IMG/VR virus record: IMGVR_UViG_3300030060_000361
Span: 1-24,225 of that record
Strand: one strand, 5' to 3'
From: a virus
DNA: 24,225 nt
The notes under the pieces were generated by a model. That model was not told the DNA's origin, searched no databases, and saw nothing but the letters and a program-made list of their open reading frames with translations. Both the position numbers and the translations under genes were made by a program. Shown here piece by piece: positions 9,285-22,383 of this stretch; position 1 is the stretch's first letter; every line of letters begins with the position of its first letter.

Positions 9285-10112
9285 TTAACCCATCATGTAA
9301 TTGGGTGGTAACTCGTAACTTAATTGTATCTGCTCTTCTAATTTGTTTATTTCTTCTTGCGCTTGTGAATAGATTTGTTCACCATTCATTTGAACACCAC
9401 CTAACATAGCGACACCTTGAAACTTACTTAAATTAGTACCCCATTGTTTTTTGATTAATTGTATTAGGTATTTCTTTAAAAAGATATCATCAAATATATC
9501 TGTAAATGTTGATGGATCTAGTTTTCTATAACATTCGATAATAATAAAATCACCAGCGTCAATATCATTTGACCAGTCCATATCAATGTATAGTCTGTTC
9601 TTATGTTGATTAAATCTGATTGGTCTTTCACCTACAAGTATATGATCTAACATATCTAAATGCCTTAATGTCATATCGTAGTGAATGATTGATGTAGATG
9701 AAAAATCGTATAAGTCGTTTAGTCTTAATTGATATCTTACATCAAATAAATTTAGATTTGCCTTGTCTGTGAAATCAAATATTCTTGTAACTGAAACAAC
9801 ACTAGAGGGCATTGGTATATAGTTTTTGCCTTCTACGAAACTGGCAGTAACTGTACTATCTGCCGTATCCGTTACTGTGGATAATGTCTCATTAGTTTTT
9901 GCCCTAGTTATATCGTCTGCTGTAACTTGATATTTTAAATACATTCTCTCAACACCATCATAGTGATATTGAGCAAAGTATTGTAACGCCTCGTCAATAC
10001 GGTCCTCTACCTGATCATCTTCTACATTTATTTCGATTACAGGTTTACCTAATGCTCGAAGGCAATATTGTTTAAGGGTCTCTCTAGTCGTTATTGGGTT
10101 ATTTTGTGCCAT
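9285..10112 (-). CDS. gp13: Neck protein gp13
   Basis: 275 residues (T4 gp13: 309). It is the head-proximal neck component acting with gp14. Family features are the N-terminal TRETLKQYCLRALGKPVIEI, then NVEDDQVEDRIDEALQYFAQ and YHYDGVERMYLKY, with MTLRHLDMLDHILVGERPIRFN in the middle and LKKYLIQLIKKQWGTNLSKFQG near the C-terminus. It is the first gene after the fibre block and has its own exact late promoter 19 bases upstream. It thus heads the tightly packed unit gp13-14-15-16-17, whose members are joined by overlaps or single-base gaps. Confidence 0.95.
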   Translation of the reverse strand: MAQNNPITTRETLKQYCLRALGKPVIEINVEDDQVEDRIDEALQYFAQYHYDGVERMYLKYQVTADDITRAKTNETLSTVTDTADSTVTASFVEGKNYIPMPSSVVSVTRIFDFTDKANLNLFDVRYQLRLNDLYDFSSTSIIHYDMTLRHLDMLDHILVGERPIRFNQHKNRLYIDMDWSNDIDAGDFIIIECYRKLDPSTFTDIFDDIFLKKYLIQLIKKQWGTNLSKFQGVAMLGGVQMNGEQIYSQAQEEINKLEEQIQLSYELPPNYMMG

Positions 10113-10131
10113 ATTATAGTCCTTATGAGAC

Positions 10132-10139
10132 TATTTATA
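10132..10139 (-). promoter_or_regulatory. T4-type late promoter before gp13
   Basis: Exact TATAAATA on the minus strand, followed by G, 19 bases before the gp13 start and in the 38-base gap after the 1017-residue fibre gene. It would drive the neck and terminase unit. Confidence 0.75.
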
Positions 10140-10150
10140 AGGAAAATAAC

Positions 10151-13100
10151 TTAATATCTTACAACTACTCTATCGCCTGAAGCAGGTGCCGCATCAAGGG
10201 TTAATGTAGTACCAGAGATTGTAAAGTCCTCAGTAGGTTCTTGTACAACCCCGTTGATTGTTACCAAGAATTGGTTTACATTATAACCTGAAGCAATTGT
10301 AACAGTTGTGGTAGATCCATCACCATCTAGTGTTGCTTTGTTGGCACCAGATGATACTTTGAAAGTTTCGTTTGGTATACTAACTGTTCTATCTGCTGTA
10401 GGGTCAATTACAGTAAGAGTTGTTTCAAAACTGTCTGCTGTACTACCTTCAAATACAATGTTACCACCTAGATTTATGCCTGCATTGAAAGTTGTTTCCC
10501 CTGCCGCACTACCATCTATTGTTACGAAAGTTGTATCCGCACTACCGTCAGTACCTTTGAAGATAATATCTGTATCATTACCTTGAGCGTCTATTGTAAT
10601 ATTACCAGAAGTTGTGGTTACATTTACAGCCGCGTCCCCAGCAGTAAAGTCATCATATGCTAATGATATACCACCTTGCATGTAGGTCTTAACAGTTGTA
10701 ACATTAGTCATTCTCATAGTGCCGCCATCGTTAATTAAGATACCGTCACCGTCTGCTAATGCAGTTGTACCTCTACTTGTACCTCCGTCAATTAAATTAA
10801 TCTCTGCAGGTGTAGCCGTAATTTGATCTGTACTTGCAGCCGCGAAAGGTTGTAATGTACCACCTATGTTTGCAAGATTGATTGTTCTATCTGCTGTTGG
10901 ATCAACAACACCTAATGTTGTTTCGAATGAATCCGCAGTAGAACCTTCAAATATGAAACTACCAGTTGTAGTCGTATTACCAGTAATTGCTGGTGTAGCA
11001 ATTGTAGGACTTGTTAAAGTCTTGTTTGTTAATGTAGCAGTATTATCAGTACCAACAAGAGTTGTAGTATCCGCAGGTAAAGTAATTGTTATGTTACCAG
11101 AAAAATCTGAGTGTGCCGGAGCAGTTAATGCCGCATAGTGAGCATTTGAACTTTCACAATACATTCTGATAGCAGATTGAGCACCATCGTTTTTAAGGTC
11201 AATCAAACCAGTTGTAAATGTAATTCTATCATTACCACCAAGTCTAAAGTCTATTTGGTCATCTGAACTAGCAGTAATTGATGTATCAGCGTCAGCGTCT
11301 AATATCAACTCACTACCGTTCATGTCTATATCACCTGCAACTAATATTGATGATCCTGAAAGTACATTGAAAGTATTAGCAGTAAATGTGAAATCGTCAG
11401 CGTTTGCAATCTTAATATCAATCTGGTCGTCTGTACTTGCATGTATAGAAGTATCAGCGTCTTCATCTAATATTAATTCACTACCATTTAAATCAAAAGA
11501 TTTTAATTGTAATGCGACAGTACCACTATCGTTAGGTAGATTAATTGTTCTATCTGCTGTAGGGTCAACTACATTTAAAGTTGTTTCAAAAGAGTCCGCA
11601 CTTGAACCCTCAAATATGATACCACCAGATAACTCAACATTTGAGAATGCCGCAGATCCACCCCCGGTTACATCTGTTAGAAATGCAACGGTACCAGAAC
11701 CATTTTGGAATGTAATTGTTCTATCTGCTGTTGGGTCAACAACCGCAAGAGTTGTTTCAAAACTGTTTGCTGTAGCACCTTCAAATACAACTGAACCAGT
11801 TGTTGTAATTGTATCTGAAGCAAGAGTACCTGCAAAAGTTACATTAGCACCATCAAAGGTTGCCGCAGTAGTTGTACCAGATTTAATAATTAAGTTATTT
11901 GAATTGTTTGTTAATGAAGCGAATTGTGAACCACCATCTAATAATAGTACATCACCGCCGTCAGCGTCAACTTTAATATCGCCAGGTGCGTCTAGTGTTA
12001 TGTCAGTTGCACCATTTAGTACAAAGTCTAATGCTGTTGTACCCCCAGCCTTCAATGTAATATTATCACCGTCAGCGTCTAATACAATGTCTGTAGCCGC
12101 GTCTAGTGTAATAGTAGAACCTGAATCAATTTCAGTTATGACTGGAGTTGTTAAAGTTTTATTTGTTAGAGTATCAGTTGTATCTCTACCAACTAACTGT
12201 GTAGTTGCGTTTGGTATTGTAACTGTTCTATCTGCTGTTGGATCTTCTACTGTTAAAGTTGTTTCAAAACTATCACTTGTTGAACCCTCAAAAGTAAATG
12301 AGTTTGTTACATCAATAGTTGAGGAATCAATTGTAGTAGTTGAACCAGAAACTGTTAAGTTACCTGCAATGGTAACATTTGCACCAGACATTGTGATTGC
12401 AGTAGTAGGTGTAGAACCTGATTGGATTCTTAAATTACCACCGTTGTTATTCAATGCACCAAATGTAGTGCCACCATCTTTTAATGTAATGTCTGCCCCA
12501 TCAGCGTCTAAAATAATGTCAGTAGCGGCGTCTAAAGTTATAGAACCAGTACTATCTATTTCAGCGATAACAGGAGTTGTTAATGTCTTGTTTGTTAATG
12601 TATCAGTAGTATCTCTACCAACAAGAGTTGTTGTTGCGTCTTGTATAGTTACTGTACGATCTGCTGTTGGATCTGCAACCGCAATAGTAGTTTCAAAACT
12701 GTCTGCTGTGTTACCTTCAAAAATTAATGGACTCGCATTTGAGAAGATACCTTGAGTACCAGTAATTGTTGATGAAGATGTAATCGCACCAGAAGCCACT
12801 GTACCTGCAAAAGTTACATTTGATCCTGAAAAAGTTGCCGCGGTAGAAGCGGAAGATGATGATTTAATAATTAACTCACCACCAGATTGTGTAAATCTAC
12901 CAAATTCTGTTCCGTCGTCTTTTAAGACGATATCTGCTCCACCAGCGTCTAAATTAATATCCGTTGTTGCGTCTAATGTGATAGTAGAACCACTATCTAT
13001 TTCAGCGATAACTGGTGTTGTTAAAGTTTTATTTGTTAAAGTTTGAGTAGCACTATCAGTAACTAACGCAAAACCACCTGCTGTAGATCCGTCATGTAAT

Positions 13101-13204
13101 CTAAGCGTATCTAGTGTGGTATCTACACTAATCTCACCTACAGCACCTGTAAAACTGTTATTTTGAGAGGTAGTACCTCTTCTAAATTGTAGTTGCGTTG
13201 GCAT
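10151..13204 (-). CDS. Repetitive tail-fibre-like protein, 1017 residues
   Basis: The N-terminus (PTQLQFRRGTTSQN, then GAVGEISVDTTLDTLRLHDG) matches the Mtd-type N-terminal domain found on phage receptor-binding fibres, which usually anchors the fibre to the virion. Then come six copies of the FEGS-ADSFETTL-DPTADRT module, alternating with ITLDA-TDI-LDADGAD-TLKD-GT blocks of about 60 residues. A segment around SAIRMYCESSNAHYAALTAP and the last 64 residues closely match the 439-residue fibre at 20846. Such regular beta-rich repeats usually form long trimeric shafts. It lies just before gp13, where T4 has wac and gene 12. Whether it is a short or long tail fibre, or a neck whisker, cannot be told from sequence alone. 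Confidence 0.85.
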   Translation of the reverse strand: MPTQLQFRRGTTSQNNSFTGAVGEISVDTTLDTLRLHDGSTAGGFALVTDSATQTLTNKTLTTPVIAEIDSGSTITLDATTDINLDAGGADIVLKDDGTEFGRFTQSGGELIIKSSSSASTAATFSGSNVTFAGTVASGAITSSSTITGTQGIFSNASPLIFEGNTADSFETTIAVADPTADRTVTIQDATTTLVGRDTTDTLTNKTLTTPVIAEIDSTGSITLDAATDIILDADGADITLKDGGTTFGALNNNGGNLRIQSGSTPTTAITMSGANVTIAGNLTVSGSTTTIDSSTIDVTNSFTFEGSTSDSFETTLTVEDPTADRTVTIPNATTQLVGRDTTDTLTNKTLTTPVITEIDSGSTITLDAATDIVLDADGDNITLKAGGTTALDFVLNGATDITLDAPGDIKVDADGGDVLLLDGGSQFASLTNNSNNLIIKSGTTTAATFDGANVTFAGTLASDTITTTGSVVFEGATANSFETTLAVVDPTADRTITFQNGSGTVAFLTDVTGGGSAAFSNVELSGGIIFEGSSADSFETTLNVVDPTADRTINLPNDSGTVALQLKSFDLNGSELILDEDADTSIHASTDDQIDIKIANADDFTFTANTFNVLSGSSILVAGDIDMNGSELILDADADTSITASSDDQIDFRLGGNDRITFTTGLIDLKNDGAQSAIRMYCESSNAHYAALTAPAHSDFSGNITITLPADTTTLVGTDNTATLTNKTLTSPTIATPAITGNTTTTGSFIFEGSTADSFETTLGVVDPTADRTINLANIGGTLQPFAAASTDQITATPAEINLIDGGTSRGTTALADGDGILINDGGTMRMTNVTTVKTYMQGGISLAYDDFTAGDAAVNVTTTSGNITIDAQGNDTDIIFKGTDGSADTTFVTIDGSAAGETTFNAGINLGGNIVFEGSTADSFETTLTVIDPTADRTVSIPNETFKVSSGANKATLDGDGSTTTVTIASGYNVNQFLVTINGVVQEPTEDFTISGTTLTLDAAPASGDRVVVRY
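10350..13045 (-). repeat. Six-copy fibre module array in the 1017-residue gene
   Basis: Six units begin with FEGxxxxSFETT, the first at about 12721 and the last at about 10453, with LTNKTLT and TLDADGAD-type blocks between them. Two copies carry variants: one leads into SFDLNGSELILDEDADTSI and one into FQNGSGTVAFLTDVTGG. Codons differ among copies, so the repeat is better conserved in protein than in DNA. Limits are approximate. Confidence 0.8.
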
Positions 13205-13235
13205 TTGTTGTCTCTCCTATTATCTAATCTCTATC

Positions 13236-13243
13236 TATTTATA
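13236..13243 (-). promoter_or_regulatory. T4-type late promoter before the 1017-residue fibre gene
   Basis: Exact TATAAATA followed by G on the minus strand, 31 bases before the ATG at 13204. A TAGGAGAG ribosome-binding site at 13212-13219 lies in the predicted leader. This is a well-formed promoter and leader. Confidence 0.8.
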
Positions 13244-13251
13244 ACATTTTT

Positions 13252-15180
13252 CTATGCGACACTACCTAAATCTACCGTAACACTTGAACCTTTAGGGTTC
13301 ATCATATCATAAGATGTTCCTGTGATAACACCAAAAGCGTCAGTAATACTTTCAAACGGACTTTCACCACCTGCCAAGTCAGCGTTACCACTTGCCGCAG
13401 GGTGAGTAGTTGTTGTTGAATTATCAAAGAATACATCTGTGGTTGTTGCGATTGTGCCTGTACTTGTTGGTAATGTTAAAGTAATATCCGCAGAAGGGTT
13501 ACCTGGTGCAAGTGTAGTCTCAAAACTATCCGCACTTGATCCCTCAAATATTAAGTTAGTTGAAATAGTACCATTAAAGGCAACAGTATCAGTTGCCGCG
13601 TCTCCTAATGTTATAGTGCCACCATTAAATGTTGTTGTACCAGTAACTGTTAAGTTACCTGCCACTGTGGTATTTGCACCACTCATAGTCATATTGGTAG
13701 TAGATGAACTACCAGATTTTATTTGTAATTCACCACTATTGTTTGTAAATCTACCGTATTCAGTACCACCGTCTTTGAGTATTACATCAGCACCGTCAGC
13801 GTCTAGGTTTACATCACCTGCACTATCTAAAGTTATAGATGAACCAGTAATATTTGTAATGACTGGATTTGTTAAAGTCTTATTTGTTAATGTGTCCGTA
13901 GTATCTTTACCTACTAGAGTGTCAGTTGCATTTGGTAATGATACTGTTCTATCTGCGGTAGGGTCAACTACTGTTAATGTAGTTTCAAAACTATCTGCTG
14001 TAGAACCCTCAAAGATAACATTACCAGTTGTAGTAGTGTTACCTGTGATTGCAGGTGTTGTCAATGCAGGACTTGTTAATGTCTTGTTTGTTAAAGTATC
14101 AGTTGTTGCTTTACCAACTAATGTATCACTACCAGAACTTGGTAAAGTTAATGTGATATCAGCAGATGGGTTACCTGGTGTAAGTGTAGTTTCAAAACTA
14201 TCGTCTGTACTACCTTCAAAAACAAGATTACCTGTAATTGTACCACCAAATGATACCGTATCACTTGCACTATCACCTAGTGTGATTGTAGAACCATTTG
14301 CCGTTGCATTACCTGTTACTGTTAAGTTACCTGCGATAGTAGTATTCGCACCTGACATTGTAAGGTTTGTTGTTGAACTACTACCTGATTTGATTTGTAA
14401 TTCACCAGAGTTGTTTGTAAATCTACCAAACTCTGTCCCTGCGTCTTTTAAAATTATATCTGCCCCATCAGCGTCTAATGTAATGTCGCCTGCGGAATCT
14501 AATGTGATTGTACTACCATCTATTTCTGTTATAATAGGTGTAGTTAATGTTTTGTTTGTAAGTGTTTGTGTACTTGCAAGACCCACTAAAGTATCTGAGG
14601 CACTTGCAGGTAATGTTAATGTAATATCTGAACTAGGGTTACCTGGTGCAAGTGTAGTTTCAAAACTATCACCAGTTGAACCTTCAAAGACTAAATTGCC
14701 TTGAATTGTACCACCAAATGTAACTGTATCAGTTGCGGCATCCCCTAAAATAATATTACCATCACCATCAGTTGTACCAGTAACAGTTAAGTTACCTGCG
14801 ACAGTAACATTCGCACCACTCATAGTTATAGCGGTTGTTGTACTTGATGATGACTTGATAACTAATTGACCACCTGAGTTTGTAAATCGTCCAAACTCTG
14901 TTCCGCCATCTTTTAAAACAATGTCCGCACCGTCAGCGTCTAGTATAATGTCTGCCGCACTATCTAATGTAATGTCGCCAGATGATGTTGAAAATCCACT
15001 ACCAAACTCTATGGCATTACCTGCCGCATTTACTTTTAAGACTTGACCAGCAGTACCTAATGTTGATAACCCTGTACCACCATGGGCGTGTCCTACTGTT
15101 TCGCCTGATTGAAATTCTGCAAGTCCTGTGGCATTACCACTACTATCAAAGACCGTACGAATTGGAACTTTATCTGTCAT
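13252..15180 (-). CDS. Repetitive tail-fibre-like protein, 642 residues
   Basis: The N-terminus (MTDKVPIRTVFDSSGNATGL, then GGTGLSTLGTAGQVLKVNAA) contains the GGTGL-LGTAGQ-LKVN motif common near the start of phage fibre proteins; the 243-residue fibre has it too. The body holds four FEGS-DSFETTL modules, three of them in the PGNPS-DITLTLP variant rather than DPTADRT. They alternate with DGADIILKDGGTEFGRFTNN and SSTTN-TMSGANTTVAGNLTVTG blocks. The C-terminal 60 residues (FFDNSTTTTHPAASG to the end) are unique in the window and may be the tip or a trimerisation domain. The start ATG is only 5 bases from an exact late promoter. Confidence 0.85.
   Translation of the reverse strand: MTDKVPIRTVFDSSGNATGLAEFQSGETVGHAHGGTGLSTLGTAGQVLKVNAAGNAIEFGSGFSTSSGDITLDSAADIILDADGADIVLKDGGTEFGRFTNSGGQLVIKSSSSTTTAITMSGANVTVAGNLTVTGTTDGDGNIILGDAATDTVTFGGTIQGNLVFEGSTGDSFETTLAPGNPSSDITLTLPASASDTLVGLASTQTLTNKTLTTPIITEIDGSTITLDSAGDITLDADGADIILKDAGTEFGRFTNNSGELQIKSGSSSTTNLTMSGANTTIAGNLTVTGNATANGSTITLGDSASDTVSFGGTITGNLVFEGSTDDSFETTLTPGNPSADITLTLPSSGSDTLVGKATTDTLTNKTLTSPALTTPAITGNTTTTGNVIFEGSTADSFETTLTVVDPTADRTVSLPNATDTLVGKDTTDTLTNKTLTNPVITNITGSSITLDSAGDVNLDADGADVILKDGGTEYGRFTNNSGELQIKSGSSSTTNMTMSGANTTVAGNLTVTGTTTFNGGTITLGDAATDTVAFNGTISTNLIFEGSSADSFETTLAPGNPSADITLTLPTSTGTIATTTDVFFDNSTTTTHPAASGNADLAGGESPFESITDAFGVITGTSYDMMNPKGSSVTVDLGSVA
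13435..14960 (-). repeat. Four-copy fibre module array in the 642-residue gene
   Basis: FEGS units start at about 14688 and recur to about 13548. Each is followed by an LVG-TLTNKTLT stretch except the last, which leads into the unique C-terminus. Copies with PGNPSSD/PGNPSAD dominate, in contrast to the 1017-residue gene. Limits are approximate. Confidence 0.75.
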
Positions 15181-15185
15181 GTTAC

Positions 15186-15193
15186 TATTTATA
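15186..15193 (-). promoter_or_regulatory. T4-type late promoter abutting the 642-residue fibre gene
   Basis: Exact TATAAATA followed by G on the minus strand, in the 23-base gap between two fibre genes, but only 5 bases before the ATG. A transcript begun at the usual distance would start at or just past the start codon. The octamer also separates an AAAGGA ribosome-binding site from the ATG. Function as a promoter for this gene is therefore doubtful despite the perfect match. Confidence 0.5.
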
Positions 15194-15203
15194 TCCTTTT
15201 ACT

Positions 15204-18200
15204 TTAAAACAGGAATATTACCTCTTCCTGTGCGGTCAATGCTGAACCGTCTTGTTTAGTGAAGGCTCTAAACACATAGTTTAGGTTTCCTGATGCCGCA
15301 AACTGAAAGTTTACATTGGCAGTAGATAAATTACCTTTCTTAAAAAATGGCACAACCCTTATCGCTTTACCTGTACTTTCTTGGGCCTTTGCGATTGCAA
15401 CTGTACCAACTTTAGAACCTTCTGGCAAAGTTGCACCTGCCGCAGATATGGCAATATTACCAGTATTATCTGAACTAATTGTTGCACCACCTAAATCAAT
15501 CGTACTTGCACTTACGAATAATGTTCGCCATCTTAAACTAGCAGAACCAAGATCGTATGTATCATTTGCCGCAGGTATAATATGTGAGTTAACTCTTGCA
15601 TTGAAAACAACTGTATCTGAGGTTGCGTCTCCTAAAGTAACATTACCAGTAGTTGCAAGTGTAGTGAATGAACCTGCTGCCCCACCACCTGTTACATCAG
15701 TTAAGAATGCTAGAGTACCACTACCATCTTGTAGTGTGATTGTTCTATCTGCTGTAGGATTTGTAACTGTTAATGTAGTTTCAAAACTATTCGAACTACT
15801 ACCTTCAAAAACAATTGAACTATCAGATAAATTTAAACCTGATACTGTAGGACTTGTTAATGTTTTATTTGTTAAAGTGTCAGTAGTTGCACGACCAACA
15901 AGTGTGTCTGTAGCGTTTGGTAATGTAAGTGTTCTATCCGCAGTTGGGTCTGTAACTTGTAATACAGTTTCAAAACTATCTGCTGTACTACCTTCAAAAG
16001 TTAATGTGCCACCTACTGTTAAGTTTGTAATACTTGGACTTGCGTCTAAGGCAATAGCAATATTATTATCACTTACAGTTGTTGTAATATTACTACCACC
16101 TTCAAAGTTTAGTGTATCTGTCGCCAAAGAAACAGTATCGTTTGATCCACTATCCGCACCAACAGAAAGTGCCGTAGTAATACTGGCAGTTGAAAGAGAT
16201 GTTACAAGTCCTTTTGCGTTGGCAGTTATAACTGGTATAGCAGTTGAACTACCTGTGGCACTTGTATCTGAATTTACAGTTGCAAGTGTAACCGCACCAC
16301 TTGATGATACAGTAGCGTCCCCACTAAACATACCATGAGTTATAACAGTACCAGTTGCATTTGGTAAAGTGATTGTTCTATCTGCTGTTGGATCTGTTAC
16401 TGCTAGAGTTGTTTCAAAAGAGTCCGCAGTAGAACCTTCAAATATAATTTCATTAATATTTGGACTTGTTAAAGTTTTATTTGTAAGTGTTTCTGTTCCT
16501 GTTAATGAAACAAAACTATCACCTTGTAGTCCTGCATTGAACTCACCAAGAGTACCAGTAAATGTTCCTAAATCATCAAGGTCTATGTGTAATGTATTGG
16601 CATTACTGTTAATCGTTTTATTTGTTAATGTATCAGTTGTTGCCTTACCAACAAGTGTATCACTAGCACTTGACGGGAGCGTTAGTGTAATATCACTTGA
16701 CGGATTGCCTGGTGTTAAGGTTGTTTCAAAACTATCGTCAGTAGAACCTTCGAAGACTAGAGAGCCTGTAATGGTACCAGATAATGCGATTGTGTCTGTA
16801 GCGGCATTACCAAGTGTGATTGTACTACCTTGTGTTGATGATGTACCAACAACTGTTAAGTTACCTTCAACTTGTACATTAGCACCTGACATAGTAAGTG
16901 CCGCGGTAGATGAACTACCAGACTTGATGACTAACTCACCTGAACTATTTGTAAATCGACCAAACTCTGTTCCGTCATCTTTTAAAATTATATCTTGTTC
17001 ACCTGCGTCTAATACAATGTCAGTTGCCGCGTCTAATGTAATACTACTATTACTATCAATCTCAGCAATTACAGGTGTTGTTAAAGTTTTATTTGTAAGT
17101 GTATCAGTTGTATCTTGCCCTACTAAAGTTGTAGTAGCGTTTGGTAATGATACCGTTCTATCTGCTGTTGGATCTACTGTGGTTAAAGTTGTTTCAAAAC
17201 TATCCGCACTTGATCCTTCAAATACTAAAGCATTCTGTACTTCTATTGTAGAACTATCAACCGTAGTAGTAGAACCTTGTACAGTAAGATTACCTGCTAC
17301 TGTAACATTACCTGCGGCAGTTACATTTGCACCAGTAAATGTTAAGGCGGTTGTTGAACCTGATTTAACAATCAGATTACCAGATGAATTTGTTAGACTA
17401 CCATATTGTGTACCGTCATCTTTTAAAACTACATCACCGCCACCTGCGTCTAATGTAATATCTTGTACAGCGTCTAACTCAATACCACCTGTACCAACTA
17501 TCTCAGCGATAACTGGTGATGTAAGTTGTTTGTTTGTTAATGTTTCACTACCTGTTAATGATACAAAACTTTCTGATTGTAATGCACTATTAAATTCTGC
17601 AAGTGAACCAGTAAGTGTATTATTACCTAAATCTATACTTTTATTTGTAAGTGTTTCACTACCTGTTAAAGAGGCGAAACTATCACCTTGTAGTCCTGCG
17701 TTAAACTCTGCCAGTGTACCAGTAAATGTACCTAGATCATCTAAATCAATATGTAAAGTATTTGCATTACTATTGATTGTTTTATTTGTAAGTGTTTGTG
17801 TTGACGCTAAACCAACTAAAGTATCAGAAGCACTTGATGGTAAAGTTAAAGTTATATCTGAACTTGGATTACCAGGTGTTAATGTTGTTTCAAAACTATC
17901 TGCTGTACTACCTTCAAAAGTTAAACTACCTGTAATTGTACCACCAAAAGCAATAGTGTCTGTAGCGGCGTCTCCTAATGTTAAAGTACCACCATTAAAT
18001 GTTGTTGTGCCTGTTACTGTAAGATTACCACCTACATCTAAATTACCTGCGGCAGTTATATTTGCCCCACTAAATGTTAATGCTGTTGTATCACTTGAAC
18101 TTGATTTAATTACTAACTCACCTGAACTGTTTGTAAACTGACCAAATTTAGTACCACCATCTTTTAATTGTATATCGCCACTGTCAGCGTCTAGTGTAAC

Positions 18201-18719
18201 ATTACCACTAGCGTCTAGTGAAATGTTAGTACCATCAATGTGATTGATTTGAGGTGTTAATAATATTTTATTTGTAAGTGTTTCTGAACCTGTAAGTGAA
18301 ACAAAACTATCATCTTGTAATGCGGTATTAAATTCTGCTAATGTACCTGATAAGGTATTGCTATCTAAATCTATTGACTTGTTTGTAAATGTAATTGTAC
18401 CAGAGGCGTCTTGGGTATCAATATATGCCTTAAGACTTTCACCAGAATGTATTGATATAGATGAAGCACCTGCAAGTGTATCACTATCAATAGGTGCTGT
18501 GCCAATAAAGTTACCACCGTCAGATTGTATCTGAATAAAAGTACCCGCTGAGGTTGCATTAATTGTTGTATCTGTTAGTGAGGAAAGAGTAGTAACATTG
18601 GTAACGGCACCACCTGCCGCAGGGACTTCAACTGAAACCTGTTGTGGACCAGCAGAATTAGTCGAAGTAATCTTCGCTTTTTTCTTGTTTGAATTTGATA
18701 CTCTACCCTTTAATGCCAT
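15204..18719 (-). CDS. Repetitive tail-fibre-like protein, 1171 residues, largest gene in the window
   Basis: The N-terminal 60 residues are Lys-rich and then Thr/Ser-rich (MALKGRVSNSNKKKAKITST) and differ from those of the other fibres. The body carries six FEGS-SFETTL modules. It also has four copies of a second repeat, LAEFN-ALQ-DSFVSLTGSETLTNK, found only in this protein. Near the C-terminus is ANDTYDLGSASLRWRTLFVS, a motif seen in other phage fibres, followed by a unique 75-residue end with PFFKKGNLSTANVNFQFAAS and FRAFTKQDGSALTAQEEVIF that may be the receptor-binding or folding tip. An exact late promoter lies 19 bases upstream. A 38-bp direct repeat (15967-16004 and 17887-17924) is in frame. 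Confidence 0.85.
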   Translation of the reverse strand: MALKGRVSNSNKKKAKITSTNSAGPQQVSVEVPAAGGAVTNVTTLSSLTDTTINATSAGTFIQIQSDGGNFIGTAPIDSDTLAGASSISIHSGESLKAYIDTQDASGTITFTNKSIDLDSNTLSGTLAEFNTALQDDSFVSLTGSETLTNKILLTPQINHIDGTNISLDASGNVTLDADSGDIQLKDGGTKFGQFTNSSGELVIKSSSSDTTALTFSGANITAAGNLDVGGNLTVTGTTTFNGGTLTLGDAATDTIAFGGTITGSLTFEGSTADSFETTLTPGNPSSDITLTLPSSASDTLVGLASTQTLTNKTINSNANTLHIDLDDLGTFTGTLAEFNAGLQGDSFASLTGSETLTNKSIDLGNNTLTGSLAEFNSALQSESFVSLTGSETLTNKQLTSPVIAEIVGTGGIELDAVQDITLDAGGGDVVLKDDGTQYGSLTNSSGNLIVKSGSTTALTFTGANVTAAGNVTVAGNLTVQGSTTTVDSSTIEVQNALVFEGSSADSFETTLTTVDPTADRTVSLPNATTTLVGQDTTDTLTNKTLTTPVIAEIDSNSSITLDAATDIVLDAGEQDIILKDDGTEFGRFTNSSGELVIKSGSSSTAALTMSGANVQVEGNLTVVGTSSTQGSTITLGNAATDTIALSGTITGSLVFEGSTDDSFETTLTPGNPSSDITLTLPSSASDTLVGKATTDTLTNKTINSNANTLHIDLDDLGTFTGTLGEFNAGLQGDSFVSLTGTETLTNKTLTSPNINEIIFEGSTADSFETTLAVTDPTADRTITLPNATGTVITHGMFSGDATVSSSGAVTLATVNSDTSATGSSTAIPVITANAKGLVTSLSTASITTALSVGADSGSNDTVSLATDTLNFEGGSNITTTVSDNNIAIALDASPSITNLTVGGTLTFEGSTADSFETVLQVTDPTADRTLTLPNATDTLVGRATTDTLTNKTLTSPTVSGLNLSDSSIVFEGSSSNSFETTLTVTNPTADRTITLQDGSGTLAFLTDVTGGGAAGSFTTLATTGNVTLGDATSDTVVFNARVNSHIIPAANDTYDLGSASLRWRTLFVSASTIDLGGATISSDNTGNIAISAAGATLPEGSKVGTVAIAKAQESTGKAIRVVPFFKKGNLSTANVNFQFAASGNLNYVFRAFTKQDGSALTAQEEVIFLF
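15680..18240 (-). repeat. Six-copy fibre module array in the 1171-residue gene
   Basis: FEGS units run from about 17918 to about 15809 with LTNKT-type linkers. A degenerate seventh (FEGGSNITTTVS) lacks the SFETT part. The LAEFN-ALQ repeat occurs four times, once upstream of the first FEGS unit near 18330. Two units contain an exact 38-bp DNA match. Limits are approximate. Confidence 0.8.
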
Positions 18720-18738
18720 ACAACCCCTAGTATAACAC

Positions 18739-18746
18739 TATTTATA
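18739..18746 (-). promoter_or_regulatory. T4-type late promoter before the 1171-residue fibre gene
   Basis: Exact TATAAATA followed by G on the minus strand, 19 bases before the ATG at 18719, in the 32-base gap after the 113-residue gene. An AGGGG ribosome-binding site lies between promoter and start. Confidence 0.75.
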
Positions 18747-18751
18747 TAGAT

Positions 18752-19093
18752 TTATCTGGTAGCGTTTGGACTTACTGTAACAATTCCTTGAATTACACGG
18801 GTAACTGAACTATCTGAGGTTTTTGTTAATTCAACATCATACACATATCTACCTTCTTCTAATGCGGCAGTTTGTGTAGGTGTAAGTGAGATAGTAATTT
18901 CACCTGTTGTTCTATCGTCTGCAAAGGCAACAGTAAAAGTGGCACTAGCACTTGATGAACTATAAGACTTTCTTATTTGAGACGCACCAGTATGACCAGT
19001 TGTATCAAATAGGGAATCGTCATCATTAAATACCGTAATGGTACTTGTAAATGTTGCCCCTTGGTCTATGAGTAAATTTGCTATTGCAGCCAT
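18752..19093 (-). CDS. Small beta-rich virion-associated protein, 113 residues
   Basis: Begins MAAIANLLIDQGATFTSTIT, then IRKSYSSSSASATFTVAFAD, DRTTGEITISLTPTQTAALE, EGRYVYDVELT and RVIQGIVTVSPNATR. The alternating strands and the closing R-VIQG-VTVSP pattern look like one Ig-like or baseplate-upper-protein-type beta domain. Small proteins of this kind lie beside fibre genes in marine T4-like phages, so a baseplate or fibre-connector role is plausible but unproved. The start ATG lies 5 bases after the stop of the 71-residue gene and has no clear ribosome-binding site, which suggests translation by re-initiation. A GATAAATAG promoter-like sequence overlaps that stop codon. Confidence 0.8.
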   Translation of the reverse strand: MAAIANLLIDQGATFTSTITVFNDDDSLFDTTGHTGASQIRKSYSSSSASATFTVAFADDRTTGEITISLTPTQTAALEEGRYVYDVELTKTSDSSVTRVIQGIVTVSPNATR

Positions 19094-19098
19094 AAAGA

Positions 19099-19314
19099 CT
19101 ATTTATCGTCTTTTGGTTCTTCTTTCGCTGTATCTACTGTTATTTCTTTTGGTATAGTTTGTTCGTAATATTTCAACAATACATCTATCTTTTCTATTTC
19201 TAGTTGATGTTTTAGTTTAGATTGTTGTAATATCTGATATTGTTCTGCATGTAATTTACCTTTTGGCGACAATGCGTCCATATCTATTGTATCAACTTTT
19301 TTTTCTTCAGCCAT
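19099..19314 (-). CDS. Small charged helical protein, 71 residues, unknown function
   Basis: No family recognised. The sequence is highly charged, with a predicted central helix or coiled coil (HAEQYQILQQSKLKHQLEIE, then KIDVLLKYYEQTI) and acidic/Lys-rich ends. It has no membrane segment or signal peptide. The start ATG at 19314 overlaps the end of the dioxygenase gene by 8 bases (ATGGCTGA) and has a good GAGGAG ribosome-binding site within that gene. Overlap with the dioxygenase and the 5-base gap to the 113-residue gene make a three-gene cassette inside the fibre block. A partner or chaperone role for its neighbours is possible but speculative. Confidence 0.7.
   Translation of the reverse strand: MAEEKKVDTIDMDALSPKGKLHAEQYQILQQSKLKHQLEIEKIDVLLKYYEQTIPKEITVDTAKEEPKDDK
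19100..19107 (-). promoter_or_regulatory. Late-promoter-like GATAAATA before the 113-residue gene
   Basis: GATAAATA followed by G on the minus strand, one mismatch from TATAAATA, 6 bases before the ATG. It overlaps the last codons and stop of the 71-residue gene, so part of the match is constrained by coding. Weak candidate. Confidence 0.3.
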
Positions 19315-20017
19315 TATCTTGCTCCTCTAATTTTTTTTCTCTTGCTTTAATCATCTTATCATCTACCACATCAGATGGTGATCCTTGTTTTGTTGGGTCA
19401 AACTCGACATCATCATTAGGCACGCCAAACAATTTATTTAAATCTAGTATGCCAGGACCTACATAACAATTATCTCTTATTAACCATCTTACAGATAATC
19501 TAGCAATATTTGGTTTTGTAAATGCTTGACCTCTATGCATGTCAGTACATGGAAAACAAACTACTCTACCATGTTTAAATGGCACAGTTACATTTTGTGT
19601 TTCATTTATAAAATGACCACCAATATCTTCACCATGTGTATCTTCATCTGCCAACATTAGTATATATGACCAATCATCTGGGTGCACACTATCTGTATGG
19701 TCTGTGCCTTCCATGCCCATAAATTGTATGTTAGTAGAAATCAATCGCAATACAGGTAGTTGTTTCATTCGCATAGCGATTTGATATACTGGGTCTATCA
19801 ACTGATTTGCTAATTCGTAGTTTGCTTGGTCGTAATGTATAACACTTAAATTGTGTCTCTCAAATAATGTACTGCCCATTATTTTATGATTGCCTTTATG
19901 ACCATAAGGCCATGTATGGCGACCTGCAATATTATTTGATTTGCAATTTGATTCGATTACTTTTTGTGATAGTTGCCTTAAATATAGGTCATCAAATATA
20001 TCGTCAAAATATTTCAT
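19307..20017 (-). CDS. 2-oxoglutarate/Fe(II)-dependent dioxygenase, prolyl-hydroxylase type
   Basis: 236 residues. The facial triad is visible: His107-x-Asp109 in GTDHTDS and His161 in FPCTDMHRGQ. Arg173 in ARLSVRW fits the residue that binds the 2-oxoglutarate carboxylate. Between them lie a GGHF turn (133-136) and the VPFKHGRVVCFP strand (146-157), the usual double-stranded beta-helix layout of the P4Hc type. Enzymes of this family hydroxylate proteins or small molecules using O2, Fe(II) and 2-oxoglutarate. They are common in marine T4-like phages and their substrates are mostly unknown. The C-terminal 45 residues are polar and outside the fold. The gene lies between two fibre genes and has an AAAGGAT ribosome-binding site and a TATAAGTA promoter-like element. 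A role in modifying virion proteins is inference. Confidence 0.88.
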   Translation of the reverse strand: MKYFDDIFDDLYLRQLSQKVIESNCKSNNIAGRHTWPYGHKGNHKIMGSTLFERHNLSVIHYDQANYELANQLIDPVYQIAMRMKQLPVLRLISTNIQFMGMEGTDHTDSVHPDDWSYILMLADEDTHGEDIGGHFINETQNVTVPFKHGRVVCFPCTDMHRGQAFTKPNIARLSVRWLIRDNCYVGPGILDLNKLFGVPNDDVEFDPTKQGSPSDVVDDKMIKAREKKLEEQDNG

Positions 20018-20033
20018 TATAATCCTTTCAAGT

Positions 20034-20049
20034 GTGTTCTATTGAACAC
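20034..20049. other. Short hairpin in the dioxygenase leader
   Basis: GTGTTC pairs with GAACAC across a 4-base loop, between the promoter-like element (20053-20060) and the ribosome-binding site. A 6-bp stem is modest. It could lie at the 5' end of the dioxygenase mRNA or at the 3' end of the upstream fibre transcript. Confidence 0.35.
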
Positions 20050-20052
20050 TAA

Positions 20053-20060
20053 TACTTATA
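20053..20060 (-). promoter_or_regulatory. Late-promoter-like TATAAGTA before the dioxygenase
   Basis: TATAAGTA on the minus strand, one mismatch from TATAAATA, immediately after the stop of the 243-residue fibre gene and 35 bases before the dioxygenase ATG. It is placed correctly for a leader with a ribosome-binding site, but the mismatch lowers confidence. Confidence 0.4.
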
Positions 20061-20792
20061 CTACTTAATAAAAGTAACTGTCTGTGAGTTCACTTGGAAA
20101 GCAGGTGATCTTGCACTTCCGTTTTGTGAAGTACCATACTGTAACTGTATTGATGGTGAGTTAGAGTTGGTAGTGTAATAACCAAAGAAAGTATTTGTAG
20201 TATTTGAAGCCGCAGAAGTTTGACCAGTATAAGTTGTTGGTAAACCTCCACCCCCTAACCCGTAAGGGCCAGTTGCACTTGATGATGTTCTACTTAATTG
20301 TGTAAGTGATATGTTAGAAGAAGTATAAGAGTAGTTGTATGAACCAATGTGGTTACCTGCTCTTAATTGACCAAATGTCCATGAAAAGTTAAACAACCCA
20401 GTACCAGTTGGTATAGGTGAAACAGAAGCAGTTGATGAACTTGATTGTCCGTGACCACCTGTATTCAATGTAACATTACTTGGTGAAACAGTTGCAACAG
20501 TTAGTCCGCCAGCAGTACCAAATTCTAATGCCGTAGCACCTGAATTAACTTTGATTGCCTGCCCAGCAGTACCTAAAGATGTAAGTCCAGTACCACCTTT
20601 TGATACAGGTAATGTGCCTAGTCTTGCCTCAGGTAAGATACCTGATCCAATATTTGCCGCGTCTGTTGTATCAGTTGTTGCACTTGCAGCCAAACCTGTT
20701 AGTTTGGAATCGTCAATAGCCGCAGATGCATTGACATCAGCGTTTACAATTGTTCCGTCAGTAATTTGACTTGACTTAATTCTAGTAACCAT
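20061..20792 (-). CDS. Short tail-fibre-like protein, 243 residues
   Basis: The N-terminus MVTRIKSSQITDGTIVNADV with NASAAIDDSKL and the GGTGLTSLGTAGQAIKVNSG motif (about 67-86) are typical N-terminal segments of phage fibre proteins. The GGTGL motif is shared with the 642-residue fibre. Unlike its neighbours it has no FEGS module. Residues 100-243 are Ser/Thr/Asn/Gly/Tyr-rich (LRAGNHIGSYNYSYTSSNIS, GPYGLGGGGLPTTYTG) and probably form a compact glycine-rich receptor-binding or adhesin-like tip. The start ATG has a TAGGAGAG ribosome-binding site and an exact TATAAATA 20 bases upstream. It may be a tip or adhesin that joins a longer shaft made by another gene, but this is inference. Confidence 0.82.
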   Translation of the reverse strand: MVTRIKSSQITDGTIVNADVNASAAIDDSKLTGLAASATTDTTDAANIGSGILPEARLGTLPVSKGGTGLTSLGTAGQAIKVNSGATALEFGTAGGLTVATVSPSNVTLNTGGHGQSSSSTASVSPIPTGTGLFNFSWTFGQLRAGNHIGSYNYSYTSSNISLTQLSRTSSSATGPYGLGGGGLPTTYTGQTSAASNTTNTFFGYYTTNSNSPSIQLQYGTSQNGSARSPAFQVNSQTVTFIK

Positions 20793-20812
20793 CTTTTACT
20801 CTCCTATAATAG

Positions 20813-20820
20813 TATTTATA
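20813..20820 (-). promoter_or_regulatory. T4-type late promoter before the 243-residue fibre gene
   Basis: Exact TATAAATA on the minus strand, here followed by C rather than G, 20 bases before the ATG at 20792 with a TAGGAGAG ribosome-binding site between. A 7-bp inverted repeat, AGTATTT/AAATACT (20811-20831), includes the element, possibly by chance. Confidence 0.75.
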
Positions 20821-20845
20821 CAAAAAATACTTTCAAATTAAATTT

Positions 20846-22165
20846 TTAATATCTTATTACTACCCTATCGCCACTTCCCGGAGCAGCGTCTAGTGTAATA
20901 GTTGTCCCCGAATATGTAAAGTCCTCTGTAGGTTCCTGATCCACACCGTTGATTGTTACAAAGAACTGATTAACATTATAACCACTACCCACAGTAATAG
21001 TTGTAGTTGATCCATCTCCATCTAACACAGCCTTATTCGCATATGAATTAAGTTTAAATGTTTCGTTAGGTAATGTGATTGTTCTATCCGCAGTTGGATT
21101 TACTACTGTTACCGTAGTTTCAAAACTGTCAGCACTACTACCTTCGAATACGATTGAACTATCTGTTAATGATAAACCTGAAACAAGTGGTGATGTTAAA
21201 GTTTTATTTGTTAATGTATCAGTAGTTGCACGACCAACAAGTGTATCAGTTGCCGCAGGTAAAGTTACAGTAACATTACCAGCATATGCACTATGTGCCG
21301 CACTTTGTAATGCCGTGTAGTGTGCGTTAGAACTTTCACAATATAATCTTATAGCAGATTGAGAACCACTGTTCTTAATCTCTATTAAACCTGTTGTAAA
21401 TATAATATCAGAATCCCCAACTAATTTAAATTCTATGGTATCGTCTGATTCGGCCTTAATAGATGTATCACCATCTTCGTCTAATACTAATTCACTACCA
21501 TTTAAATCAAAAGATTTTAATTGTAACGCAACCGTTCCACTATCGTTTGGAAAAGTTATTGTTCTATCTGCTGTTGGGTCTGTTACTGCCAGAGTTGTTT
21601 CAAAACTATCGTCTGTCGCCCCTTCGAATACAATTGAACCCGTTGTTGTAATTGAACCAGAAAATGATCCACTAAATGAACCACCATTAATTGTAGGTGA
21701 TGTTAAAGTTTTATTTGTTAATGTTTCAGTAGCAGTGATTAAAGATACAGTACCAGTTGCATTTGGTAAAGTAATTGTTCTATCTGCTGTAGGGTCTGTA
21801 ACAGCGATTGTAGTTTCAAAACTATCTGCCGTACTACCTTCAAAAATAATTGTTGGTGATGTGATAGTTTGGTCAGTAAATAAGTTTGCCGCAGTTAAGG
21901 CTCTTAACTGTCCACTACTTGTATCAACCATAATGAACTCGTCATTACTTGCCGGGCCTGCACCTAAATTACTTTGTGCTGTAATTGTTGCCGCAGAAAA
22001 TCCAGCAACCTCTGCCTCTAACTCGTTCATCGCCGCAACCAAGTTACTCGCACTAATAGACGAACTTAATTGTGAGATATCACCAAAGTCTGTCGCTGAT
22101 AAAGTGTTAAAGGTAGTCCTTAACTGTTCTATCGTTGCGTCTGCTGCTACTTGTCTTGCTGCCAT
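20846..22165 (-). CDS. Repetitive tail-fibre-like protein, 439 residues
   Basis: The N-terminal 75 residues are distinct: MAARQVAADATIEQLRTTFN, then FGDISQLSSSISASNLVAAM, a helical segment suited to an anchor or trimer coil. Three FEGS-DSFETT modules follow. The stretch SFDLNGSELVLDEDGDTSIK, then SAIRLYCESSNAHYTALQSA, and the last 64 residues (54 identical) match the C-terminal part of the 1017-residue fibre. This protein therefore looks like a shortened relative with a different anchor. The start ATG at 22165 overlaps the 78-residue gene by 19 bases. No promoter lies in a gap before it, but a TATAAATA occurs within the upstream gene at 22221-22228. Confidence 0.84.
   Translation of the reverse strand: MAARQVAADATIEQLRTTFNTLSATDFGDISQLSSSISASNLVAAMNELEAEVAGFSAATITAQSNLGAGPASNDEFIMVDTSSGQLRALTAANLFTDQTITSPTIIFEGSTADSFETTIAVTDPTADRTITLPNATGTVSLITATETLTNKTLTSPTINGGSFSGSFSGSITTTGSIVFEGATDDSFETTLAVTDPTADRTITFPNDSGTVALQLKSFDLNGSELVLDEDGDTSIKAESDDTIEFKLVGDSDIIFTTGLIEIKNSGSQSAIRLYCESSNAHYTALQSAAHSAYAGNVTVTLPAATDTLVGRATTDTLTNKTLTSPLVSGLSLTDSSIVFEGSSADSFETTVTVVNPTADRTITLPNETFKLNSYANKAVLDGDGSTTTITVGSGYNVNQFFVTINGVDQEPTEDFTYSGTTITLDAAPGSGDRVVIRY
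21050..21844 (-). repeat. Three-copy fibre module array in the 439-residue gene
   Basis: FEGS or FEGA units start at about 21844 and recur to about 21148, all of the DPTADRT or NPTADRT type, with LTNKTLTSP linkers. The second unit leads into the SFDLNGSEL block, as does the matching unit in the 1017-residue gene, so the arrays share order and not only units. Limits are approximate. Confidence 0.75.
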
Positions 22166-22383
22166 TTACTTACCATTCCTTTTAAAATTTCTTTTATTTC
22201 AAACATTTCTGCTTTCAAATTATTTATATCTCTCACGGCATTTCTCAAATCGTTTTGACTTGCTCTTGCCTCTTTTATTCTTTGTACATGTACAGCGTAG
22301 GCACTTCTATCAGTATTGATAATTGCACCAGATCGTGTGTCTCTTACAATTGATCTATGACCTTCTACTTTTAATATACTCAT
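22147..22383 (-). CDS. Small coiled-coil protein, 78 residues, unknown virion role
   Basis: Begins MSILKVEGHRSIVRDTRSGA followed by IINTDRSAYAVHVQR. From about residue 33 to the end it is a likely amphipathic helix or coiled coil (NDLRNAVRDINNLKAEMFEI, then KEILKGMV). I know no function. The DTRSGAI-NTDRSAY stretch looks conserved and may bind a larger partner. It starts with a TAATG overlap with the upstream structural gene and overlaps the 439-residue fibre gene by 19 bases, so it is translated between a tail protein and a fibre protein. A small tail or fibre assembly component is plausible. Confidence 0.8.
   Translation of the reverse strand: MSILKVEGHRSIVRDTRSGAIINTDRSAYAVHVQRIKEARASQNDLRNAVRDINNLKAEMFEIKEILKGMVSKWQQDK
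22221..22228 (-). promoter_or_regulatory. Possible internal late promoter for the 439-residue fibre gene
   Basis: Exact TATAAATA on the minus strand, but inside the coding region of the 78-residue gene (Asp-Ile-Asn-Asn codons) and followed by A. It lies 55 bases before the 439-residue gene's ATG, a usable distance. In AT-rich coding DNA it may be coincidence. Confidence 0.3.

Follow-up and report, generated by a model that had tools for sequence, protein, structure and literature searches.

Few accessory genes of marine cyanophages and pelagiphages are as numerous as those for iron- and 2-oxoglutarate (2OG)-dependent oxygenases, of which families such as T4-GC 101, 104, 155, 240, 412 and 611 (PF13640/PF13759) are carried in high copy number per genome (PMC3037559, PMC9602691, PMC9599517); a search of the literature for substrates of these cyanophage and pelagiphage enzymes found no report. 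Pelagimyophages also possess a hypervariable island, the host recognition cluster, which extends from VrlC to the neck genes and in which fibres are mixed with cargo, glycosyltransferases and radical SAM genes being the cargo that was stressed in its description (Zaragoza-Solas et al. 2020, PMC7029224). The gene considered here belongs to the same oxygenase superfamily and the same phage setting, as one distinct family among these enzymes, and can be compared with two counterparts in named phages. The first, HTVC008M gp076 (YP_007517942, hypothetical protein), is 34% identical over 178 aa, comes from the same kind of phage and shares the iron and 2OG ligands and the segment NIAxRxxWPYGxxGxH, but lies between the sheath stabiliser and the small terminase with other 2OG genes and a flavin halogenase nearby, and lacks a C-terminal extension of about 50 aa. 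The second, 32% identical and located in the 2OG cluster of Synechococcus phage Sf-CH1b (SfCH1b_33 to _43), is found a few genes downstream of a tail collar protein as one of several consecutive oxygenases from different families, whereas the copy described here stands alone between fibres. Among characterized enzymes, the prolyl 4-hydroxylases (PBCV-1 vCPH, PHD2 and bacterial P4H) have the same double-stranded beta-helix fold and HxD...H motif, although at 10–15% identity and a TM-score of just about 0.5.

The window, i.e. the whole stretch of DNA that was analysed, is contig IMGVR_UViG_3300030060_000361 (24,225 nt), which covers only 24 kb of the phage genome. Its minus strand encodes the portal, tail tube, sheath, large and small terminases, sheath stabiliser, neck genes, fibres and VrlC, and the contig represents the late module of a T4-type pelagiphage similar to HTVC008M. 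The nearest named genome is that of Pelagibacter phage HTVC008M, with the same gene order and 80% DNA identity within the matching parts. The host is probably a member of the SAR11 bacteria. The position of the oxygenase between VrlC and gp14, and its variability among relatives, fit auxiliary metabolic gene cargo of a host recognition cluster, one that differs from the published examples in being short (~13 kb) and in carrying a 2OG oxygenase (Table 1). The first-pass annotation had placed the gene between fibre genes, and this order was confirmed both in the window and in near-identical relatives. The short fibre directly upstream shares its N-terminal ~100 aa with other fibres and ends in a Gly/Ser-rich C-terminal tip.

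Table 1. Features of the oxygenase locus and its surroundings in the window
Feature	Position	Strand	Remarks
Host recognition cluster (VrlC to gp14 neck gene)	9285..22383	-	Gene order; definition per PMC7029224
Large fibre protein	15204..18719	-	
L-shaped tail fibre assembly-type protein (phrog_1084/3304)	18752..19093	-	Slot marker in this analysis
71-aa protein, HTVC008M gp060 homologue	19099..19314	-	ATG overlaps oxygenase stop by 8 bases
Fe(II)/2-oxoglutarate-dependent oxygenase, 236 aa, phrog_274-type family	19307..20017	-	ATG at 20017, stop ends 19307
C-terminal extension of oxygenase, residues 184-236, with predicted charged helix 214-234	19310..19468	-	Low model confidence
R173 of R-x-S motif (R173-x-S175), predicted 2-oxoglutarate ligand	19499..19501	-	Invariant, 25 aligned sequences
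Third iron ligand H161	19535..19537	-	Invariant, 25 aligned sequences
HTD, first two iron ligands H107 and D109	19691..19699	-	Invariant, 25 aligned sequences
GTGTTC-AATA-GAACAC hairpin between fibre and oxygenase genes	20034..20049	-	No T run
Weaker late-like box TATAAGTA, one mismatch	20053..20060	-	35 bases before oxygenase start; chance possible
Short tail-fibre-like protein, 243 aa, directly upstream of oxygenase	20061..20792	-	
Exact T4-type late box TATAAATA, likely promoter for short fibre and oxygenase	20813..20820	-	20 bases before short fibre
Fibre protein, HTVC008M gp059 homologue	20846..22165	-	

The oxygenase is encoded by an intact open reading frame, and the complete Fe(II) triad and 2OG arginine claimed for it from the sequence proved to be invariant in an alignment of 25 sequences, most of which are just ~30–40% identical to the window protein. 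The conserved segment noted above, which is N-terminal, is likewise shared with phrog_274 relatives. Against PF13640 (2OG-FeII_Oxy_3) the window protein scores 20.6 bits, under the curated cut-off of 27 bits, although E <= 0.01 is reached by 19 of the 25 sequences in the alignment; the phrog_274 profile matches residues 1–178 of the window protein (E 2.8e-12) and 24 of the 25. The protein is treated as a diverged member of the 2OG-Fe(II) oxygenase superfamily. An alignment-based AlphaFold model predicts a double-stranded beta-helix (pLDDT 73, pTM 0.70) and was used in place of a single-sequence model that reached just pLDDT 32. When this model was compared by Foldseek, solved 2OG oxygenases ranked at the top (probability 1.00, TM about 0.5), with a Burkholderia enzyme, PiuC, PHD2 and the chlorovirus enzyme vCPH among the top matches, while a sequence search of solved structures returned no confident relative. 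The structural scores from this predicted model place the protein in the superfamily without singling out prolyl hydroxylases, such that the original description as 'prolyl-hydroxylase-type' holds for the fold class and does not extend to substrate specificity, which cannot be read from a fold. The C-terminal extension is confined to this lineage, other relatives being about 170–201 aa long, and is possibly a docking element. Outside the family, a weak profile relationship was seen to one other phage 2OG family, a match in L010 was rejected as a spurious hit to a neck-type protein, and one scan of cellular genomes with a single peptide pattern returned no relatives.

Late control, which had been suggested for the gene from its context, appears well founded in the distribution of T4-type late boxes. 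All seven exact TATAAATA boxes in the window (minus strand; 5549, 10132, 13236, 15186, 18739, 20813 and 22221) are on the coding strand and none is on the opposite strand, with six of the seven falling no more than 60 bases from a start codon (binomial p about 1e-7); they precede fibre, neck and sheath genes, including the fibre gene upstream of the oxygenase. On that strand, the interval from the short fibre to the oxygenase yielded no terminator-like site, and the small hairpin in this interval is not a typical terminator, because it is not followed by a T run. The same hairpin was rejected as a regulatory element, being not significant (z -1.1). Given the late boxes, the absence of a terminator-like site and the 8-base overlap between the oxygenase stop and the following start, the oxygenase is likely to be co-expressed with the fibre genes during late infection.

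The oxygenase is under strong purifying selection, as dN/dS ranges from 0.00 to 0.11 across six near relatives (synonymous distance from the window copy <=0.19) and is about 0.09 for L007 against L008. Values for the adjacent short fibre among near relatives are higher, at 0.22–0.31.

The fibre-flanked arrangement is common to seven contigs at 96–100% identity, one of them cut inside the gene, and among family members a position beside fibres of this kind is restricted to this near-identical lineage. Elsewhere, the gene occupies a range of sites that includes early regions of the genome. In HTVC008M and its kin the homologue is located between the sheath stabiliser and the small terminase (gp3-terS) and the fibre slot is empty; the L043 member is also at gp3-terS. 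The S-RIM4 member adjoins tRNA-Leu, hli and psbA, other lineages carry the gene by thyX-phoH or nrdAB, L013 and L014 have it ahead of GroES and head genes, L015 by an exonuclease, and in Sf-CH1b and relatives it belongs to a 2OG cluster behind the collar fibre proteins. Over seven location labels, the family tree requires at least eight changes of location. The first-pass annotation had suggested testing whether the gene stays beside fibre genes across relatives, and took relatives in which it is early and far from fibres as refuting a role in fibre modification. In HTVC008M, S-RIM4 and the thyX-phoH and nrdAB lineages it is elsewhere, and with thyX-phoH, nrdAB and tRNA-Leu/hli/psbA as neighbours the second pattern is largely what was found.

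What recurs around the family is other oxygenases. Across 119 members in 35 lineages (75% identity), with neighbours counted within four genes, at least one other 2OG oxygenase was present in 25 lineages and at least two in 20, a 'ferrochelatase'-like gene in 11 and a flavin halogenase related to HTVC008M gp079 in eight. At a random point in complete cyanophage and pelagiphage genomes, a background that is different from the contigs scanned, at least one 2OG gene lies within 3 kb at a frequency of 0.19 and at least two at 0.05; 2OG genes cluster generally, 58% having another within 3 kb in these background genomes. In HTVC008M the same set is split between two late loci, gp068-gp072 and gp076-gp079. 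Among well-sampled lineages the window copy is the exception, being solitary and without an oxygenase or halogenase partner within 24 kb. Co-occurrence of 2OG oxygenases with 'ferrochelatase' has already been published for pelagiphages (PMC9599517, PMC11561400), and the cyanophage halogenase VirX1 accepts many aromatic compounds, with no natural pathway given in its table entry (PMC8407142). Eight unassigned marine phage contigs (L219, L244, L246, L247, L249, L254, L256 and L265) carry contiguous islands of several non-orthologous 2OG oxygenases together with ferrochelatase-like and/or flavin halogenase genes, and these look like a tailoring pathway.

A separate observation concerns the 'ferrochelatase' family itself (phrog_2954/3531; e.g. 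L001:28809-29450, which is HTVC008M gp068, L132:3953-4549 and L171:2225-2899). Its members have an invariant HxDR ... PGD ... HWR pattern (alignment positions H106, D108 and H159) that resembles an iron site of the 2OG/cupin type and is offered as a lead only. Profile comparison of this family with 2OG families was not significant, and Pfam returned no match for the single member that was scanned. The published pairing of pelagiphage 2OG oxygenases with ferrochelatase may stem from misannotation.

The best reading of these results, to which we assign a probability of roughly 0.6, is that the gene encodes a late-made, selectively maintained tailoring hydroxylase and is a portable, phage-only gene inserted in the fibre cluster. 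The window copy would be a solitary representative of a phage family whose members usually reside in islands that combine several different 2OG enzymes, in many cases along with a flavin halogenase and a 'ferrochelatase'-like gene. It would have been inserted behind the short fibre into the exchangeable host recognition cluster, where the late promoter of the short fibre would drive it. Fe(II) would be coordinated by H107, D109 and H161 and 2OG by R173, and O2 would generate an Fe(IV)-oxo species that hydroxylates the substrate with release of succinate and CO2, hydroxylation being the most likely outcome. The substrate, which could be a peptide, a protein or a small molecule produced within infected cells, would most likely be one that is also tailored by the other enzymes of the set, rather than the adjacent fibre. 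Counting against this reading, family members are also in virion modules in HTVC008M and L043 (gp3-terS) and in Sf-CH1b (behind the collar fibre), a lone copy without partners within 24 kb possibly acts on a substrate of its own, for instance the fibre next to it, and the C-terminal extension that other members lack could dock the enzyme.

The leading alternative is a fibre-modifying enzyme, which would hydroxylate Pro, Lys, Asn or Asp of the short or neighbouring fibre with an effect on stability or receptor binding, its extension docking on the fibre or its chaperone. A fibre substrate is possible in this lineage, given that the lone enzyme is invariably preceded by one and the same fibre and bears an additional C-terminal tail; its gene also lies directly between fibre genes under a late box, overlaps the gene before the fibre assembly protein, and is present in all near relatives that have the same fibre variant. 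However, these relatives are near-identical and represent one event, and other family members are located elsewhere. Across the ~79 fibre genes with the same N-terminus and a downstream neighbour, most lack a 2OG gene within three genes; five have one, three of which are the window lineage. Three lineages with this short-fibre N-terminus have as next genes the oxygenase, an unrelated enzyme set (2OG/JmjC/DUF6065) or a 112-aa gene.

The slot itself was surveyed in contigs picked solely for the neighbouring fibre assembly gene. In diverse relatives it holds unrelated 2OG oxygenases and Asp/Asn beta-hydroxylases, which favours a fibre-directed role, but also nitroreductases, radical SAM and acetyltransferase-type genes and others, which does not. 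In the isolate Mosig EXVC030M it contains two Asp/Asn beta-hydroxylases and a dioxygenase. As an observation on this isolate, its slot (L206, 54.1-63.1 kb) carries about a dozen redox and transferase genes in a run, comprising, besides the two beta-hydroxylases and a dioxygenase of TauD type, a peroxiredoxin, an FMN reductase, a nitroreductase, a desaturase, an aminotransferase, an acetyltransferase, a methylase and molybdenum-cofactor-type genes. Nor were PF13640 genes enriched near the fibre marker in ten complete genomes, with none within 10 kb against eight expected and eight within 15 kb against 12 expected, in a test of one family and one marker gene. A dedicated oxygenase slot as a general rule was rejected on the basis of the mixed cargo and this lack of PF13640 concentration; the slot before the fibre assembly gene accepts cargo in general. 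The general link to fibres that had been drawn from the position of the gene is likewise not borne out, the usual neighbours being other oxygenases and a halogenase. Fibre adjacency does not show that the oxygenase modifies fibres, since its relatives occupy many different sites, where their neighbours are mostly further oxygenases.

The analogy with collagen-type hydroxylases, by which hydroxylation had been proposed to stabilize fibre trimers, is without support here. Collagen-type prolyl 4-hydroxylases bind 2OG via Lys, whereas the ligand is Arg in all aligned members of this family. No window fibre, within 24 kb of genome, has a run of four or more Gly-X-Y repeats, such that a collagen-like substrate is lacking there, and proline makes up just 2–5% of these proteins. 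Some pelagimyophages do encode collagen repeats (PMC7029224). A literature search for hydroxylated phage fibres or virion proteins, itself incomplete, found no report. Overall, modification of the fibre is considered unlikely.

Action on host metabolism, by lowering or sensing 2OG or by hydroxylating a host metabolite with a consequent change in nitrogen or energy metabolism, appears improbable. It was proposed for cyanophage 2OG oxygenases (PMC3037559) and repeated since (PMC9602691), and several family members do keep company with early metabolic genes (thyX-phoH, nrdAB and the psbA region). The window copy, however, is under late boxes among virion genes, draining 2OG requires coupled turnover of a substrate, and the presence of up to 24 diverged copies in one phage (PMC9602691) is unlike bulk 2OG consumption. 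A more speculative proposal, of which we are rather doubtful, is that marine T4-type phages tailor their own late proteins with exchangeable oxygenase and halogenase sets, the solitary copy, with its added C-terminal tail, having become dedicated to its co-expressed fibre with hydroxylation as part of receptor recognition.

A nucleic-acid oxygenase, acting in AlkB-like repair or hydroxylating bases to modify DNA, is very improbable. Phage 2OG enzymes can act on bases, and the PHROG family of the window protein is labelled DNA endonuclease V; this label conflicts with the family's 2OG active site and fold, the closest folds are PKHD-type, PHD2 and P4H-type with AlkB-type matches ranking lower, and no DNA-modification partner gene is present beside the window copy. 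The endonuclease V identity itself was ruled out on the same fold and active site. The naming is an issue for annotation in its own right, as phrog_274 bears this name yet its members here are 2OG oxygenases, and BFVD entries called DNA endonuclease V also match the 2OG model of the oxygenase. That the gene is a neutral passenger, left over from gene exchange in a hypervariable island and without present function, would fit the gene turnover known for the region (PMC7029224) and the relatives that lack the gene in the same slot, but is scarcely credible, being largely refuted by the dN/dS values and the retention of all active-site residues.

The tailoring hydroxylase reading shifts the question from which neighbour is modified to what the set tailors. 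Within one family, the active site is under strong selection while the genome position changes, and the gene is usually accompanied by further oxygenases, a flavin halogenase and a ferrochelatase-like gene. Function within a hypervariable island should, with due caution, not be read from adjacency to fibres.
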